A stretch of 64,000 nucleotides of DNA from Flavobacteriaceae bacterium (lineage in GTDB: Bacteria > Bacteroidota > Bacteroidia > Flavobacteriales > Flavobacteriaceae), in contig JAQWGN010000016.1 of the NCBI GenBank assembly GCA_029238215.1, positions 26,853 through 90,852 on the forward strand, read 5' to 3'. The notes under the pieces are model-generated. The model did not search any database. It was not told the DNA's origin and worked only from the letters and a program-made list of their open reading frames with translations. Below, piece after piece: positions 17,154 through 49,630 of this stretch (positions within the stretch are counted from its first letter, which is position 1; every line of letters begins with the position of its first letter). The translations under genes were made by a program, and so were the position numbers.

Positions 17154-17208
17154 GCAAGCTGGTTTAGCAGTTTTTTTGAGAGGTTGCAATCAGTCAAATC
17201 CTTCCTCT
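17154..17208 (-). promoter_or_regulatory. SAM-II (SAM-alpha) riboswitch
   Basis: On the minus strand AGAGG (17208-17204) pairs with CCTCT across the conserved loop GGATTTGACTGATTGCAA; an A-rich linker and TGCTAAACC (17169-17161) follow. This reproduces the SAM-II pattern I know from the solved aptamer: short P1, an AUUU..UUGCAA loop, and a downstream GCUAAA strand that forms the pseudoknot. It lies between a perfect promoter and metK. SAM-I was considered, but its multi-helix junction is absent. Confidence 0.8.
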
Positions 17209-17217
17209 AATGAGTTG

Positions 17218-43100: not shown

Positions 43101-43595
43101 ATGGATATTCTATTACTGCTCTTGGGTTTAGTGCTAATTATGGTTGGACTAGCAGGAAGTTTTCTGCCTATAATCCCAGGACCCTTAACCAGTTGGCTTG
43201 GGCTACTTTCACTTCATTACACCAATAAAATCCCACAAGATTGGGGTTTTTTGAGTTGGACACTAGCAATAGCATTACTAATAATGGCATTGGATTACTT
43301 CATACCGATCTGGGGAACTAAAGCGTTAGGAGGAACTAAAGCTGGTGCAGTAGGATCAACTATTGGTTTAATTGTAGGGTTGTTTTTTCCGCCTATAGGG
43401 ATTATGGTAGGTCCTTTTGTGGGAGCTTTTGCAGGAGAATTAAGTAAGAACTCTAATAAGAAAGTAGCGCTACGTGCAGCATTTGGGTCATTCTTAGGAT
43501 TTCTTTCAGGAGTTCTATTAAAGTTTATTGTGTCGTTTGTCTACCTGTTGTTTTTTGTTTCAGCAGCTTGGAAGGGGTTCGATTACCTATTTTAA
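43101..43595 (+). CDS. DUF456 family membrane protein
   Basis: The 164-residue glycine-rich membrane protein has four to five helices and the pattern GLAGSFLPIIPGPLTSWLG, then GLIVGLFFPPIGIMVGPFVG and FAGEL, as in DUF456. No function is known for the family. Its stop is part of a 10-bp inverted repeat (43576-43602), and it converges on the Cas9-like locus. Confidence 0.85.
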   Translation: MDILLLLLGLVLIMVGLAGSFLPIIPGPLTSWLGLLSLHYTNKIPQDWGFLSWTLAIALLIMALDYFIPIWGTKALGGTKAGAVGSTIGLIVGLFFPPIGIMVGPFVGAFAGELSKNSNKKVALRAAFGSFLGFLSGVLLKFIVSFVYLLFFVSAAWKGFDYLF

Positions 43596-43621: not shown

Positions 43622-43692
43622 TATATTTCAAATCACAATACTATACTTATTCAAAATATTTTACCGAAATCGTTATATCAAATCACAATAAA
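43622..43692 (-). CRISPR. Degenerate two-unit crRNA-like repeat downstream of the dead Cas9
   Basis: On the minus strand the 13-mer TATTGTGATTTGA occurs at 43690-43678 and again at 43640-43628, exactly 50 bp apart, each followed by a TATA-rich stretch. ATTGTGAT is fully complementary to ATCACAAT in the anti-repeat of the tracrRNA-like gene at 47130. After a 2x2 mismatch the first unit pairs a further GAT with ATC. Inside the first unit, TTTG (43682-43679) and TATTTTG (43658-43652), 20 bp apart, look like the in-repeat promoters of type II-C arrays. From there to the next repeat only about 11 bp remain, too short for a normal 20-30-nt spacer. The unit at 43690 follows the cas9-like stop by 38 bp. 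Confidence 0.55.
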
Positions 43693-43728
43693 TTTTAACT
43701 AAACAAAACGATAAAACTAATACTTCCT

Positions 43729-46700
43729 TTATTGCATCTCTGGAACTTTTAAAAGTTTATAAAATGGAGTTATATTCCCTAGTACATCAATCGAAATCTT
43801 AAACGGATTATGTGTTTTCCATCCTGTTTTTCTTTCTCCAAAATTTAAAATACGCACATAATTAGGATATGTTTGGTCATATACATCTAGGTTGTAAATA
43901 TGTCTAAACTCATAATATTTACTAGAAATTCGTTGTACTTTATAAACGTGTTCCCAAAGGCTGGTACCCGCTTCCAAACGCTCAAATATTTCTTTCTGAC
44001 TCAATCCTAAGATAAAACAGTCGTTAATGTGTAATGTAGAAATAATCATACGCCCTTCACTAGGAAGCTGGTATAGCGATTCTTTTTCACGAATTCTTCT
44101 TACAGCCTCCCAAAAAGAAACTATGTGTTCTTGAAAGCTATTGTCTATCGCTTGATAAATCATCACATGATGATTATTTCTAGGGTTTACATATTTATTT
44201 TGACCCTTACTCACTTGTACAGCGTTTCCAACATTCTCTCGAACCCTAACACTGCGAACGGGGACTGGGTCACCATTTTTATTTGGTAAGAAAACTTTTG
44301 ATTCCCAACCTGTATCTGTTTGTTTTATCAAGGCGTCTTTGGGAATTTTCCCATTTATAAAGCCTCCCTCAAGGTCAATTTGATCATAAATCAGTTCACG
44401 GATAGAGTAATCAACAATCTTACTGATTTGTTTAGCAGTGGACAGCGTACTTATTGACTTTTTAATATGGTAAGACTCAACACCATCTGGTGTAGTTCGC
44501 TTTCCATAATAACTGTCCTTGTGCAATTTCCCTTTAGGAGACAATCCATCCTTTAAAGAGTTTGACTGAACAATTTTTCGAACAACTTGGTTGTTAATGT
44601 CTATTGAAACCGAAATGTTATTATAGGCTTGAAGCACATCACTAGTAAACCGTTTCCAGGGAGTTGGAAAAACCCCTCTGTATGGTAGTGGTTCATACCT
44701 GTTCCAATGGCGTAATTCTTCAAGAAACGAGGGTTTGTTTAAAGCAGTAACTAATGCATTAAGCGCATATTCTCGTGTATTGAAATATCGTGGTTTTTGA
44801 TTAAACGCCTCTAGGTTACTAATCCCCCATTTTCTACGAATGCTACTAATTGCATTTCCGCGAGTGGCAACAACATCGCCGCATACTCGAGAAAGATAAT
44901 TTTTAACTTTAATGGCCAAGTGATGTTGATCGTTAAACTCTCGACTTATAGAATCAACTGAATAGACTGATGAAATAAAGTGTCTGAATTTGTGATAAGA
45001 AACATTTTTAGCAGATCCCTTGAGCAATTGCTCTAATACTCGGGTTTTTACTTGCTCCCATTCACCTGAAGCTTGCTCACTAAAGTACTCGTACGGGGTT
45101 TTATTTAATATATTCTGCTTAAATGAAGACATACATAAGGCCTTATTCTTATCAGAATCATTAAAAAACCTACTCCAAGGTTGGATATACACGATTGACA
45201 CTTTGTCGGTAAACAGGTCTTCAATAGTAATTGGAGTATCTGTATATGGACATGTTTTGTTCCATTCTAGCCAAAGTTTATACTTAAACAAATTGGTATG
45301 CGTGGGGTTCTGCTCTGCCTCTAAAACCTCATTATGAATTTTGGGAAGTGTGTGTTCTCTGTATTTCTTTGAAATATAGAGGGATTTCCGATACTTAGCA
45401 TTTACCTTAACTTCATTAGACAGCACAAATTTAACCTGGTCTATAGCGCCGTGTTCACTTATCAACTGATTTATAAGTTTTCTTAATTCAAAAATGGGCT
45501 TCTGAGCTACGGGCTTAAGGCTACGTAAAATCTTGTGATTCTCTTCAGGGCTAATTGGTAAAAAATCTTCATTTTCCTGATTTAACAGATAGAGTTTGTT
45601 TTGATTTAACTTAAAATTAAATGCGTTTTCAAAATCAGACAACCAATCCATAACATGAATATCCTTTTCTTCGATTGTGGCTTGGATAAAATACTCTATA
45701 GACTCTTGTTTTGATTTATTCAAACTATTCCACCGCTGTTGTCCAATTGCGTTTTTAACCCCCCCTAAAATGATTGCTGTTTGGGTAGGATGCCCTTCTT
45801 TTAGGTAATCTAAAATTGAAGTAGCAGCTTTCATGCTTAATTTTCCAGTTCCCGGCTTTAACTTAATTGAAGCAACTGTTTTTGCTTTTACAGCCGAGAG
45901 TTTCCATTTTTCTCTAAGGCGTTGCTCAAGCATGTCTTTATTTGAATAAAAATGTAGATCATGCCATAATTCATGTTGTTCATTTTTGGAAAAATCTAAA
46001 ACCTTAGAGCCAAAAGCATTATTTCTACTAAGCTGAACAAGTGTGTGGGATAAAAAAAGCTTTGCGCTGTCATCGTAGTTAAACGCATATGGATCATCAA
46101 TTTCTAGGGCTACACGCACTTTTTTAAACAAAAAACTAGAAAACTGAAGCGCAATCTTAAGTGCTACTTCACGCTGATCTGGCGTTAAGTTTTTACCATA
46201 TAGTTTAATGGTATTAACCCAACAATACAACTCATACAGTTCGTGCATGGGGTGGCTTAGCCACATCAACTGCTTGTTCTTTTCAAAAGGGCAAGTAGCT
46301 AATGAACCTCTAGATCTTTTATAGGAAGCGGTACGCTGATAAAACAACAGTCCTTTATCCCTGTTTTCACCTAATAATTCCGCTATAAAATCTTCATTTA
46401 ATGCTTTATGATACTGCTGTTGCTTGTTAAGTAAGGCTTCAATCTCTTCAAGAAACATTGTTCTGTTAAGGTAACGGTTTCGAATACGGGTTGATTGATA
46501 TGTATAAGAAGCCTCTTTTTCAGGAAGAAGTGTATTTAAATATTCCCCCAAATACAAATCATCCAAATGCGCATTGGTTTGGTTTATTCCCAACCGATTT
46601 GCGTTTGGAAGCCCGTTATAAAGCACCTTAGCCGTAGAGTCATCCTGCATGCTAGACATTACTTTTCCCCTACGTTGGGTTAAATGATATAGAATACGAC

Positions 46701-47100
46701 CTATCTCAAGAGAAGACAATTTTTCATGAACCCCTTTAGCGCGTAATGCATACGGGTTTAAGGCAAACCATTGGTCCATTTTTGAGGATTGACTTTTATT
46801 TGCTTGCCCTAACTGCCACTTATATAGCGCGTTTTGGGTTAATGGACAAAATCCTTTTTTTGCCAAAAAGAAAAGCACTTTTTTCTTTCTGTTATTTTTT
46901 CTAAAATATACATTTCTAGAATTCCGTATTTGTGTTCGAAGCGTTGATGCAGACTTTTCACGATCGCCCTCTCCAAGCCGATCAACAAAAGAAGAAAAAA
47001 TCCGAGTACCCATAGAAACTATCCTAGGATTTGTTGATTGCTGCACAAGCGACCATCCAATAGATTCTGTTCCGATATGAATTCCTAAGATTTGTTTCAC
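43729..47100 (-). CDS. cas9: Nuclease-dead type II-C Cas9 homologue
   Basis: The 1123-residue protein aligns end to end with Bacteroidetes Cas9: RuvC-I (ILGIHIGTESIGW, 4-16), bridge helix (about 50-85; RNSRNVYFRKNNRKKK), REC lobe (about 85-530), RuvC-II (VKFVLSNEVK, 556-565), HNH (CPYTDTPITIEDLF, 617-630, to NKTPYEYF), RuvC-III (about 730-790), and WED/PAM-interacting region with NNHHVMIYQ and SFWEAVRR. Every catalytic position is changed: RuvC D to H8, E to V559, H to Y778, D to N781; HNH D to V637 and H to Y638. The HNH Asn (N652) remains. The frame has no stop or shift. The start is GTG at 47100, with an in-frame stop five codons upstream. No cas1, cas2 or csn2 is nearby. I infer an RNA-guided DNA binder without cleavage. 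Confidence 0.93.
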   Translation of the reverse strand: MKQILGIHIGTESIGWSLVQQSTNPRIVSMGTRIFSSFVDRLGEGDREKSASTLRTQIRNSRNVYFRKNNRKKKVLFFLAKKGFCPLTQNALYKWQLGQANKSQSSKMDQWFALNPYALRAKGVHEKLSSLEIGRILYHLTQRRGKVMSSMQDDSTAKVLYNGLPNANRLGINQTNAHLDDLYLGEYLNTLLPEKEASYTYQSTRIRNRYLNRTMFLEEIEALLNKQQQYHKALNEDFIAELLGENRDKGLLFYQRTASYKRSRGSLATCPFEKNKQLMWLSHPMHELYELYCWVNTIKLYGKNLTPDQREVALKIALQFSSFLFKKVRVALEIDDPYAFNYDDSAKLFLSHTLVQLSRNNAFGSKVLDFSKNEQHELWHDLHFYSNKDMLEQRLREKWKLSAVKAKTVASIKLKPGTGKLSMKAATSILDYLKEGHPTQTAIILGGVKNAIGQQRWNSLNKSKQESIEYFIQATIEEKDIHVMDWLSDFENAFNFKLNQNKLYLLNQENEDFLPISPEENHKILRSLKPVAQKPIFELRKLINQLISEHGAIDQVKFVLSNEVKVNAKYRKSLYISKKYREHTLPKIHNEVLEAEQNPTHTNLFKYKLWLEWNKTCPYTDTPITIEDLFTDKVSIVYIQPWSRFFNDSDKNKALCMSSFKQNILNKTPYEYFSEQASGEWEQVKTRVLEQLLKGSAKNVSYHKFRHFISSVYSVDSISREFNDQHHLAIKVKNYLSRVCGDVVATRGNAISSIRRKWGISNLEAFNQKPRYFNTREYALNALVTALNKPSFLEELRHWNRYEPLPYRGVFPTPWKRFTSDVLQAYNNISVSIDINNQVVRKIVQSNSLKDGLSPKGKLHKDSYYGKRTTPDGVESYHIKKSISTLSTAKQISKIVDYSIRELIYDQIDLEGGFINGKIPKDALIKQTDTGWESKVFLPNKNGDPVPVRSVRVRENVGNAVQVSKGQNKYVNPRNNHHVMIYQAIDNSFQEHIVSFWEAVRRIREKESLYQLPSEGRMIISTLHINDCFILGLSQKEIFERLEAGTSLWEHVYKVQRISSKYYEFRHIYNLDVYDQTYPNYVRILNFGERKTGWKTHNPFKISIDVLGNITPFYKLLKVPEMQ

Positions 47101-47123
47101 TTTAAAATTTTTTTATATATTTG
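47091..47123 (+). promoter_or_regulatory. Promoter of the tracrRNA-like gene
   Basis: TTTG (47091-47094), 21 bp, then TATATTTG (47116-47123), a perfect TAnnTTTG. The -33 element lies inside the first codons of the divergent cas9-like gene. The RNA would start at about 47127-47131, just before the anti-repeat. Confidence 0.75.
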
Positions 47124-47129
47124 GATAAT

Positions 47130-47196
47130 CTTATCACAATAAGGCATTAGCCGCGGATAATTATCCAGTGTCCCGCTTAGGTGGGACTTTTTTTTT
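47130..47196 (+). ncRNA. tracrRNA-like small RNA
   Basis: The RNA would contain, in order, the anti-repeat TTATCACAAT (47131-47140), AAGGC-ATTA-GCCG (hairpin GGC/GCC), the self-complementary GGATAATTATCC (47155-47166), and a 7-bp terminator hairpin (47170-47187) with nine T (47188-47196). ACAATAAGGC followed by GCCGC closely matches the core of the Neisseria meningitidis tracrRNA (CUACAAUAAGGC...GCCGC), a II-C reference. It is divergent from the cas9-like gene and has its own promoter. The anti-repeat is complementary to the repeat units at 43628-43690. At about 67 nt it is short because it starts directly at the anti-repeat. Confidence 0.8.
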
Positions 47197-47271
47197 ACTC
47201 TTTTTTTAAATTTCCTAGGGTTTAGGTCGAGAATTCCCGACCATACCCAAGGAGTAGCATAACAATCAAAG

Positions 47272-47307
47272 CAAAAAAATAAAACGGTTCATTGCTACTT
47301 ATGAACC
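47272..47307 (-). terminator. Second minus-strand terminator upstream of the cas9-like gene
   Basis: GGTTCAT / ATGAACC (47286-47307) is a perfect 7-bp stem, followed on the minus strand by GTTTTATTTTTTT. No ORF lies between it and the terminator at 47436. The rest of 47197-47435 holds no gene that I can support. Confidence 0.6.
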
Positions 47308-47428
47308 TATAAAAAAGGGCAAAAAAGGTTGTTGAGGTAAAATCACTGTTAATGGGTTATTTACTCCCTACGACACAAAGGTGATTTGATTCATAAAAAA
47401 GCCATCAGACTCAAAAGAAAAACAAGAG

Positions 47429-47521: not shown

Positions 47522-49630
47522 TTAATAATAAAGCGAACGATTATCTGTAATGTCAAATGAAACCTTTACAGCATCGTCTACTTTTTGAGCAATGTTTTGT
47601 TTCGCAGCATTTGCAATAGAAGCTTTATATCCCGCATAATTTGATAAAGCTGCTGCAGGTGTCGTAGCCTTTAATTCAACCATAAACACACCGGTATTGC
47701 CAACAATGGGTTCGGAAGTTGTTCCAGGTGTTAAACCAAAACTTCTGCCAACTACATTTGGCTCTTGTGCCGATCCGGCCAACATGCTCGTATTGCGATT
47801 AATCGCATTTGCAGTACTTACCGTTTGTTTAAATTGTGTAGCAACCTCAGCAAGTGAAGTAAATCCTTTAAGCTGCTTTAGCAGCATCTCTTGCTTTTTT
47901 TCTTTAATAACTAAGGGGCTAACAGCAGTGATAACTTCTTCCACATCAGGAAGGCCTTCAGCTTTGACAGATGAAATCTGCACAATAATATACCCTCCAG
48001 TTGTTAGGGCAAATCGCTTGACTGCCAACTCAGAGGTATTCTCTTCAAATGCCCAACGGATAACTTGACGCTGTGATCCTAGTAACGGCAATGATTCGTC
48101 CAAAGCTTTAATGTCATCTACATCTTTTACGATATAATTTTTCAACTTAGATTGCTCTAAAAAATCAGCTTCTTGTACGTCGAGCTCAAACTGTGTAGCA
48201 GCAGTAAACACTTGATTACTAGTTGCTTCAGAAGGAATCAATTTTTTTGAAATTGTAGCTAATTTTACTACATCATTTTTATCTTGAATTTCAATAACAT
48301 GAAATCCAAATTCAGTTTCAACAACTCCAAATGCCCCAACGCGATTAGAAAATACAAAATCACTGAAAGGTGCGACCATATCGCCACGAACGAATTCAGG
48401 TAACTCGCCTCCTCTTGATGCAGAAGGACCATCTGAGTTCTCACGCGCCAATTGAGCAAAGTCACTTCCGCGTTTCGCTTTTCTTAGTAGTGCATTAGCT
48501 TCTTTTCTTGCAGTAGCCTTTGTTCGTGTAATCGTTTCAGCTGCACGAGAAGCCCCCTTAAACGAAACAAGAATATGACGTGCCTTAACTTTTCCATTTT
48601 TTTGGCGTGAAACAAGACGTGTAATATTGCTGTAGCCGTTGTCTTCGTAAGGACCAAACACTTCACCTTTGGGGAGATTAAATAACGTACTCGCATAGTT
48701 TCCAGAAAGTTCCGTTTTACTAACAAAACTATCGTTGTATGGAAGATCTGAGTATTCTCCAACAAATGAAGCAATAGAAGCCTCTTCAACGCTTGCAAGT
48801 GACGGAAATGTTTCTTCTTGTTTAGAAACCTCATTAAACAAGGTACGTTCGGAAAGCAAATTACGTAATTCGTTTTCGATAAGTACTTTATCATCTGGTG
48901 TTGGATCTTCAGAAAACTGTACGTAGCGTAAGCTTCTTGATGCCTCTCTTTTGTATTTATCGCTGTTTTTTGCAATATATGCTGCAATATCTTTTTTGGT
49001 AATTTTTACCAAGCTGTCTGAAATTACTGCGTAAGGAATGCGCACGTAATCAATATCAACAAGATCATTTTGTAAGGCATAAGACTGTTGAGCTTCAAAA
49101 TTTGTAACATTGAGACCTACATTAACCATATCTTGGTATTGTTGAACACGTAAGTTGCTTTTGATGGATGCTTCTTGCGCTTTCCATTGATCGAAGCCTT
49201 GCGGATTATTTCTGCTTAAATCAATAATAAAATCGGTGAATTTTTCGGGATCAAATAACCCATCTTCACCCTGAAATTGTGGGTCTGAAGAAAAATTGGG
49301 ATCCGTTTTCAAAAATTGTTCAATGTGTTCTTTTCCAATAAAAAGTCCCAATGCGTCAAGTGCTTGCTCGTAGGCCTTTGTGTTTGACGATTGTTCATAG
49401 GCGTAATTAACGGCTTGCATAGAGCTCATACGATAACTGCGTTCCGCAAAATCAACTTGCTGGCTAAATGCATCAATTCCTACTTCCGCATCTCCTACTA
49501 CAAGAACAGGATCTTGACTTGTAGATGTATTTCCATCAAAAACTCCTGTAAATACGAACGCTAAAAGCGCCATACCAATAATGAAAATTAAAACTAATGA
49601 ACGCTCTCTGATTTTACCTAATATAGCCAT
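47522..49630 (-). CDS. Membrane-anchored peptidyl-prolyl isomerase (PpiD/SurA-like)
   Basis: The 702-residue chaperone has one N-terminal membrane helix (about 12-32), a SurA_N-like helical region, and a parvulin domain (about 345-450) with KARHILVSFKG, FAQLARENSDGPSASRGGELPEF and FGFHVIEI. A second degenerate parvulin-like region follows. The domain faces the periplasm and helps outer-membrane protein folding. It is the last gene of the coaX-to-here string. The gap to the CorC-like gene is 55 bp. Confidence 0.92.
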   Translation of the reverse strand: MAILGKIRERSLVLIFIIGMALLAFVFTGVFDGNTSTSQDPVLVVGDAEVGIDAFSQQVDFAERSYRMSSMQAVNYAYEQSSNTKAYEQALDALGLFIGKEHIEQFLKTDPNFSSDPQFQGEDGLFDPEKFTDFIIDLSRNNPQGFDQWKAQEASIKSNLRVQQYQDMVNVGLNVTNFEAQQSYALQNDLVDIDYVRIPYAVISDSLVKITKKDIAAYIAKNSDKYKREASRSLRYVQFSEDPTPDDKVLIENELRNLLSERTLFNEVSKQEETFPSLASVEEASIASFVGEYSDLPYNDSFVSKTELSGNYASTLFNLPKGEVFGPYEDNGYSNITRLVSRQKNGKVKARHILVSFKGASRAAETITRTKATARKEANALLRKAKRGSDFAQLARENSDGPSASRGGELPEFVRGDMVAPFSDFVFSNRVGAFGVVETEFGFHVIEIQDKNDVVKLATISKKLIPSEATSNQVFTAATQFELDVQEADFLEQSKLKNYIVKDVDDIKALDESLPLLGSQRQVIRWAFEENTSELAVKRFALTTGGYIIVQISSVKAEGLPDVEEVITAVSPLVIKEKKQEMLLKQLKGFTSLAEVATQFKQTVSTANAINRNTSMLAGSAQEPNVVGRSFGLTPGTTSEPIVGNTGVFMVELKATTPAAALSNYAGYKASIANAAKQNIAQKVDDAVKVSFDITDNRSLYY

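Follow-up and report, generated by a model that had tools for sequence, protein, structure and literature searches.

We report a gene for a full-length Cas9 whose two nuclease sites have been lost by substitution (dcas9, for catalytically dead Cas9). It lies in a stretch of 64,000 nucleotides of contig JAQWGN010000016.1 from a Flavobacteriaceae bacterium, which we call the window. The loss is common to the orthologues found at the same locus and the gene is under strong purifying selection. Next to it are a predicted trans-activating CRISPR RNA (tracrRNA; CRISPR: clustered regularly interspaced short palindromic repeats) with a shortened anti-repeat and two stem-loop units derived from the CRISPR repeat. 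On balance we lean towards the view that the product is a domesticated RNA-guided DNA-binding protein, which would repress genes without cutting. With respect to protein, locus and RNA the finding is stronger than in the original prediction; the regulatory function is put forward as a hypothesis.

The Cas9 protein, its catalytic residues and its locus

The minus-strand frame 43729-47100 begins with GTG and is free of stops. The NCBIfam profile for Cas9 (TIGR01865) covers residues 4-1109 with 354.7 bits (cut-off 100) and PADLOC also calls the product Cas9. The AlphaFold2 model reached a mean predicted local distance difference test score of 79.0 and a predicted template modelling score of 0.46, and when it was compared to the PDB with Foldseek the top match was Nme1Cas9 (6je4, E 1.8e-38). 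The claim of the original prediction that the gene encodes a Cas9 of full length (1123 residues) was thus borne out by the intact frame, the profile and the Nme1Cas9-like predicted fold. The profile matches nothing else in the source assembly (1.67 Mb, 88% complete).

The catalytic columns were read from alignments with solved type II-C Cas9 and with 41 chosen relatives. The active-like comparison set comprised the 12 aligned relatives out of the 91 listed below P0030, and all 12 showed D, E, H and D at the RuvC columns and E, H and N at the HNH columns. The window protein has H8, V559, Y778 and N781 at the former and V637, Y638 and N652 at the latter, i.e. six of the seven positions are substituted and the HNH Asn (N652) alone is retained. 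A total catalytic loss had been predicted, which was confirmed for the six substituted positions but not for N652. The prediction had also taken Asp (DIDHIIP) as the normal HNH acid; this was incorrect, as the active flavobacterial relatives have Glu (QIEHIHPW).

For the clade we used the 24 closest homologues (56-91% identity). Column 8 is H, Y or F in 22 of them, D in one (P0017) and uncovered in one (P0021). The remaining five columns are substituted in 24/24: column 559 is V, A or T, column 637 is V, I, T or A, column 638 is always Y, column 778 is P, T, S, Y or A and column 781 is N, I, V or L. The third HNH residue, Asn, is retained in all 24. The check proposed in the original prediction thus showed that the substitutions are common to the orthologues at the same locus, except for the RuvC-I Asp of P0017. 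As the six substitutions affect columns that are invariant in the 12 active-like relatives and are common to orthologues, they are not due to chance. The next tier of homologues (P0026-P0030, 39-40% identity) is likewise dead, with different substitutions and with some catalytic positions retained (HNH His in 1/5, RuvC-III Asp in 3/5 and the His of column 778 in 5/5). For this reason the loss looks old and stepwise.

Two members of the dead clade, P0017 and L044, have the RuvC-I Asp (LGLDIGTES) while their remaining sites are dead; this is perhaps a reversion. Outside the clade, two Flavobacterium Cas9 proteins (L069 and L076) have intact RuvC motifs and a replaced HNH acid (QIVHIHPW). Judging from these motifs they are possibly natural nickases, or have an alternative HNH.

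To place the gene we used the best 80 of 133 loci from a conserved-motif scan of 84,980 species genomes. The window locus has, in this order, SurA/PpiD-like isomerase, dcas9, DUF456, a gene for a small protein that matches no Pfam family, ruvC and a radical SAM gene of the HemN type (hemW-like). Pfam supports a SurA-type isomerase and a HemN-type radical SAM protein, which we name PpiD-like and HemW-like. The neighbour genes of the window are found at 11 of the 80 loci (L043-L050, L100, L108 and L110; L071, with a HemW match of 22%, was left out of this count), and 11/11 are of the dead type. The remaining 69 loci include one dead Cas9 (L096); the other 68 retain the Asp of RuvC-I and of RuvC-III and the His of HNH wherever the alignment reaches these columns. 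L013 (G036, 2.2 Mb, 99% complete) is an additional dead copy at the window locus, 34% identical. Full-length dead copies were found under the genus codes g1, g44, g21 and g226 and in L049 and L050, which makes at least four genera of marine flavobacteria. The named relatives with this locus are metagenome-assembled genomes (MAGs) whose titles give Flavobacteriaceae, Flavobacteriales, Bacteroidetes or Bacteroidota; one is from the North Sea.

In a tree of 45 rows from which the catalytic columns had been removed, a branch with a Shimodaira-Hasegawa-like approximate likelihood ratio test value of 99 splits the dead proteins of the window locus from 20 active ones. The tree was built by a quick method, and L108 and L013 have long branches that join, which makes their exact placement unsure. 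Identity between the dead lineages at the locus is 31-40%, and judged by these sequences the dead state common to the locus is old. L096 nests among active Cas9 and on this tree is a second, separate origin of dead Cas9. It stems from a MAG titled Rhizobium (L096:10001-13348) and its Cas9 groups among flavobacterial ones. Its tracrRNA has a full-length anti-repeat, and a single degenerate CRISPR repeat lies directly downstream.

Predicted tracrRNA and repeat-derived stem-loop units

Between dcas9 and the isomerase gene we observed a tracrRNA-like sequence on the opposite strand (ATCTTATCACAATAAGGC..GCCG.., a terminator hairpin and a T-run). Active relatives have this RNA in the corresponding position beside cas9, with an anti-repeat that is at least 11 nt longer (TCTAATCTTTA ahead of ATCTTATC). 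At the dead loci of the window place this upper part of the anti-repeat is lost or replaced. The tracrRNA sequence is present at every full-length dead copy of the window locus with an upstream flank. The Bacteroidota -7 consensus is TAnnTTTG, and the spacing TTTG-N4-ATCTTATC was found in 7/7 rows of the genus. For the three stems, which were drawn from the same 14 aligned dead loci on which they were measured, 99.5% of the cells are paired compared to 34.8-48.0% for slid versions. There are 16 double-changed cells and the covariation score was unmatched by 500 shuffles (0/500). Rfam gave no match above the gathering score at the dcas9 locus. In another part of the window a SAM-II riboswitch was detected (17154-17213, minus strand, 70.5 bits).

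The gap of 133 bp between dcas9 and DUF456 contains two copies of TTGTGATTTGAW. These are the sole exact matches in the 64 kb; with up to one mismatch there are 3 matches, which is the chance level. Their counterpart in the active repeat GTTGTGGTTTGATTAAAG is nt 2-13, from which unit 1 departs by one change and unit 2 by two; in L013 and L108 there is none. Each copy follows a conserved arm. Across nine genus loci the units of arm and shortened repeat are invariant over 34 and 22 consecutive columns (Table 1), and across the same loci just 9/33 columns of the spacer between the units are invariant. Unit 1 recurs in L048, L049, L050 and G357. Unit 2 or a relative of it was found at every full-length dead copy of the window locus examined, other genera included.

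The shortened repeat mostly pairs with the shortened anti-repeat over 7 bp, which are followed by a 2-nt internal loop and a further 2-9 bp. For nine chosen loci the duplexes between unit and anti-repeat ranged from -9.2 to -17.3 kcal/mol, and 15/16 had p <=0.05 against shuffles, where the p-values are uncorrected and come from related sequences. The pairs of unit 2 with their own anti-repeat beat swapped pairs, with 19/720 permutations as good across six lineages. As this pairing follows the lineages, shortened repeat and shortened anti-repeat appear to have been shortened together. The outer stems of the units vary by lineage yet remain complementary, which preserves the hairpin fold (unit 1: 0/5000 permutations as good, 9/13 sources; unit 2: p 0.0002, 15/22 sources). 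By their complementarity to the anti-repeat the units are likely the guide-bearing RNAs, a reading that the hairpin fold complicates.

A Cas9-independent role of the stem-loops has to be weighed at this point. They could be an element descended from a CRISPR repeat that serves the DUF456 end, for example as a terminator, an operator or an antisense RNA. The outer stems are kept by lineage. Three genomes in which Cas9 has no match at all still hold an intact unit 2 or a relative of it (L231 in G393, L238 in G271 and L239 in G285), and so do several genomes that have the C-terminal end of Cas9 only. However, the complementarity to the shortened anti-repeat follows the lineages. Furthermore the exact unit-2 pattern occurs in 16/397 family genomes, 14 of them at the window locus, and of the nine genus codes represented there seven also have Cas9 or its remains at the locus; of the other two, g233 has a weak Cas9 match elsewhere in the sample and g219 has none. 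The Cas9-less cases stem from an exact-match search, which is blind to mutated relics. We regard this explanation as doubtful. In L231, L238 and L239 no tracrRNA was found within the 3-kb stretch that was read.

Under the reading that we prefer, the predicted tracrRNA would be bound by dCas9 and would open the stem-loop of a unit by pairing with its repeat half. The freed arm of 10-12 nt would then be presented by dCas9 as a short guide, a length in keeping with the short guides that are enough for repression without cutting in FnCas9-scaRNA (11 bp) and TldR (6 nt; both described below), and the guided complex would bind DNA and repress transcription without cleavage.

We also considered other sources of a CRISPR RNA (crRNA). 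A perfectly complementary crRNA elsewhere was rejected: in 7 dcas9-bearing genomes TTGTGATAAGAT occurs just at the tracrRNA, plus at one place in G005. Upstream of dcas9 there is a second conserved element, and its exact 20-nt block TGCTTTGATTGTTATGCTAC is, among 198 genomes, confined to the dcas9 loci of the genus. In 6/7 genus loci the duplex of this block and the anti-repeat reaches -7.1 kcal/mol, but shuffles did equally well (p 0.16, and p 0.64 when the short anti-repeat was used). At three other loci the linkers paired no better than shuffles (p 0.57-0.9), and the block was discarded as a crRNA. By eye, the wobble pairs of the final hairpin of the element favour the minus strand, and a T-run follows it in L048-L050.

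Table 1. Positions of dcas9, its putative RNA elements and the flanking genes in the window
Feature	Position	Strand	Remarks
dcas9 (catalytically dead Cas9)	43729..47100	-	1123 aa, GTG start; Cas9 profile and fold
Predicted tracrRNA: shortened anti-repeat ATCTTATCACAA, nexus, second stem, terminator with T-run	47128..47196	+	inferred ends; divergent from dcas9
Putative -7 promoter box of tracrRNA, TATATTTG	47116..47123	+	4 nt ahead of shortened anti-repeat
Unit 1: arm AGTTAAAATTTA and shortened repeat TTGTGATTTGAT	43671..43710 (core 43677-43700)	-	34 consecutive invariant columns, 9 genus loci
Unit 2: arm AAGTATAGTA and shortened repeat TTGTGATTTGAA	43627..43648	-	22 consecutive invariant columns, 9 genus loci
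Second conserved upstream element: CCTTTTTTGCCC, hairpin A, 20-nt block TGCTTTGATTGTTATGCTAC, hairpin B	47225..47328	-	conserved block
SurA/PpiD-like peptidyl-prolyl isomerase, syntenic upstream gene	47522..49630	-	Pfam Rotamase and SurA_N; synteny
DUF456, syntenic downstream gene	43101..43595	+	PF04306, 125.8 bits; synteny; convergent with dcas9

We found no CRISPR immune system with the gene. Of the features of type II-C immunity, the Cas9 profile and fold and a predicted tracrRNA with a shortened anti-repeat are there; six of seven catalytic positions are replaced, and neither array nor Cas1 was found. No array is present at the locus, and a naive array scan flagged 0/12 dead loci and 57 of the 80 loci, one of which (L117) is a low-complexity false match. 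Searching the 17 genus genomes, which are incomplete, for the repeat of the relatives with 2-3 mismatches gave 8 scattered matches compared to 6 for the reversed pattern, i.e. background. Cas1 was found in 0/17 genus genomes and in 0/7 further genomes with the locus or remnants of it, five of which are at least 90% complete, compared to 9/14 in the control.

Selection, loss of the gene and competing explanations

To measure selection we computed omega, the ratio of nonsynonymous to synonymous rates, by codon maximum likelihood (GY+F3X4). We obtained 0.064 for six genus dcas9 loci (1086 codons) and 0.048 for five; these values are rough, with synonymous changes close to saturation, but divergence at second positions (0.17-0.23) is much lower than at third positions (0.55-0.59). 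For comparison, eight neighbour genes gave 0.017-0.121, two active Cas9 sets 0.035 and 0.022 and three distant dead proteins 0.038. Intact copies, whose proteins are 58-65% identical to that of the window, have frames that stay open over 1122-1124 codons. For 14 genus proteins compared to 20 active ones, conservation was 0.73 versus 0.68 in the WED/PI (wedge and protospacer adjacent motif-interacting) part, 0.72 versus 0.62 in the C-terminal part and 0.72 versus 0.68 in HNH. Across all dead rows it was lower (0.57, 0.58 and 0.56, respectively). In the bridge helix, a dead-only alignment shows the Arg/Lys positions 55, 59, 62, 67, 71 and 72 as either invariant or conserved to at least 90%.

The test by dN/dS that the original prediction had called for thus speaks for strong purifying selection, with omega far below 1. 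Its further idea of a domesticated regulator gained from the loss of both nuclease sites, from the fact that orthologues have this loss in common and from the strong selection; it was weakened by the low number of intact genes in the genus and by the failure to find a conserved target. The suggested own guide RNA is borne out in part, by the predicted tracrRNA and the complementary repeat-derived stem-loops at the locus, neither of which the original prediction had described.

Several observations weigh against guided repression by dCas9. First, the arms matched other places in the genomes over 10-12 nt, but none of the matches is conserved, and no conserved local target was found either. Non-self arm matches were found at 5/12 places compared to 17 for the reversed pattern in seven genomes. 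When 10- and 11-nt arm patterns were searched in four genomes, we obtained 10/14 compared to 15 and 10/14 compared to 30 for the reversed patterns. Among 20 non-self loci one pair is clearly orthologous (L210, L211) and three pairs are weak (28-43%). A local or genomic target was thus rejected for arm matches of 10-12 nt. Second, each arm can itself pair in part with the repeat half, and the hairpin may be the reason why the arms are conserved. Third, two measures of the tracrRNA stems that count pairs or pair types were no better than shuffles (reached by 156/500 and 500/500), and the double changes therefore rest on three pairs. Fourth, the overall conservation of the bridge helix is 0.59 in the genus and 0.47 across all dead rows compared to 0.78 in active Cas9. 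Finally, in the close pair L050/L100, which is available in two pieces, 8 differences are nonsynonymous and 7 are synonymous (0.25 for the larger piece), though these are too few to carry weight.

The gene is also frequently lost. It is intact in 4/17 genus genomes (G000, G003, G005 and G014). In G001 and G004 it is frame-broken (2/17), in G013 it is in pieces, at contig ends and gaps (1/17), G007 and G010 have just a C-terminal frame of 145 aa (2/17), G012 has a remnant (1/17) and G008 has a deletion with the tracrRNA sequence remaining (1/17). The other 6/17 have no dcas9 match, with the locus itself uninspected in these genomes. The pieces of L046 and L047 match the intact database proteins P0010 and P0004 with about 99% identity, which speaks against the frame-broken copies being pseudogenes; on these matches the frame breaks may be assembly errors or strain variants. 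We also considered whether the C-terminal remnants are a selected small protein; those of G007 and G010 gave an omega of 0.087, but their divergence may mostly predate the truncations. The tracrRNA sequence that remains in G008 after the deletion of dcas9 is starting to mutate, which we count in favour of guided repression.

The lack of a conserved target in our search and the less constrained bridge helix would also suit a dead Cas9-tracrRNA particle without guided DNA binding, which might for example control its own messenger RNA, with the tracrRNA antisense to the dcas9 leader. The shortened anti-repeat would fit, and the tracrRNA, on the opposite strand, begins near the start codon of dcas9 and beside a further structured element. 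Units complementary to the anti-repeat are, however, present at every full-length dcas9 locus examined, and we consider such a particle unlikely. A decaying type II-C relic, in which loss of the array and of cas1/cas2 would have been followed by the loss, now in progress, of dcas9 and the tracrRNA, would account for the frequent breakage, C-terminal remnants and full deletions across genus and family, for the absence of array and cas1 and for the differences between L050 and L100, but it is disfavoured as quite improbable given the low omega at 58-65% identity with open frames in the intact copies, the old common dead state of lineages that are 31-40% identical at one locus and the intact database relatives of the two frame-broken copies. 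An omega of about 0.05-0.06 together with the fixed locus thus indicates that the gene is not in mere decay, though it is often broken or deleted.

Some side lineages show altered architectures. In G036 and G278 a small protein ahead of dcas9 has a weak match to a LuxR-type helix-turn-helix (HTH; GerE, E 0.0036 and 0.072). At the window locus of G231 (L169:8714-9292) and G233 (L168:9367-9885) the last part of the dead Cas9 carries an in-frame fusion to a LuxR-type HTH (E 0.00047 and 0.0041). All four scores are under the curated cut-off. By eye, the database proteins P0127, P0131, P0136 and P0137 likewise have a GerE-like HTH fused in frame to the C-terminal part of a dead Cas9, and P0145 links the N-terminus of a dead Cas9 to its C-terminus by an internal deletion. 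As the search favours in-frame products, these forms may be deletion residue or new regulators.

Going beyond repression by dCas9 itself, we tentatively propose a fuller scenario of natural CRISPR interference. Cas9 would have been disarmed once in marine Flavobacteriaceae, tracrRNA and repeats would have been shortened together and the array would have been reduced to one or two stem-loop mini-crRNAs. The outer stem would set a guide of 10-12 nt, the tracrRNA would open the hairpin as a switch and a fixed chromosomal target would be silenced, while side lineages would have fused a LuxR-type HTH to the C-terminal end of Cas9.

Comparison with known systems

Dead regulators derived from TnpB (TldR) and active Cas9 proteins that repress by means of special RNAs are already known. 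We found no published natural Cas9 that is dead and under selection in the full-text literature, where subscription journals and bioRxiv are thinly covered. If our reading is true, evolution made dCas9 long before engineers did. The locus would furthermore provide a natural repressor that is compact and needs just a minimal anti-repeat, and the transition from CRISPR effector to regulator would become testable at a single locus with intact, intermediate and lost states.

For TldR, guides of 6 nt are enough (PMC13418256). The likeness to the window locus consists in a nuclease site lost by substitution, domestication outside a mobile context, a small guide RNA at the locus (a putative one in our case) and short guides. 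However, TldR derives from TnpB and has flagellin genes as known targets as well as partner genes, whereas here we have a full-length Cas9 and a predicted tracrRNA, and our search gave no conserved target. The window protein may work like TldR but is none, as it is a Cas9 and not a TnpB by profile and fold.

The Cas9 of Francisella novicida (FnCas9) with its small CRISPR-associated RNA (scaRNA) is similar in that a Cas9-tracrRNA complex, a non-canonical RNA and short complementarity are involved; 11 bp of complementarity suffice there to repress a chromosomal gene without cutting (PMC12231574). FnCas9 is a working nuclease with a CRISPR locus, whereas the dcas9 locus has neither nuclease sites nor an array. 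In S. pyogenes, tracr-L is a form of the tracrRNA that guides Cas9 to a promoter, which is bound and repressed (PMC11417352). Our locus has a shortened tracrRNA and a repeat part of its own, whereas tracr-L is a long, single guide and the Cas9 is active.

The type II-C systems of Flavobacteriaceae have the same Cas9 architecture, a divergent tracrRNA, the repeat start GTTGTGGTTTGATT and repeats downstream. They differ from the dcas9 locus, which lacks array, Cas1 and catalytic residues and in which anti-repeat and repeat are shortened. In engineered dCas9 the loss of both sites leads to binding without cutting. That protein is a laboratory product with two substitutions, whereas the dCas9 of the window is natural and old and has been changed at six positions.

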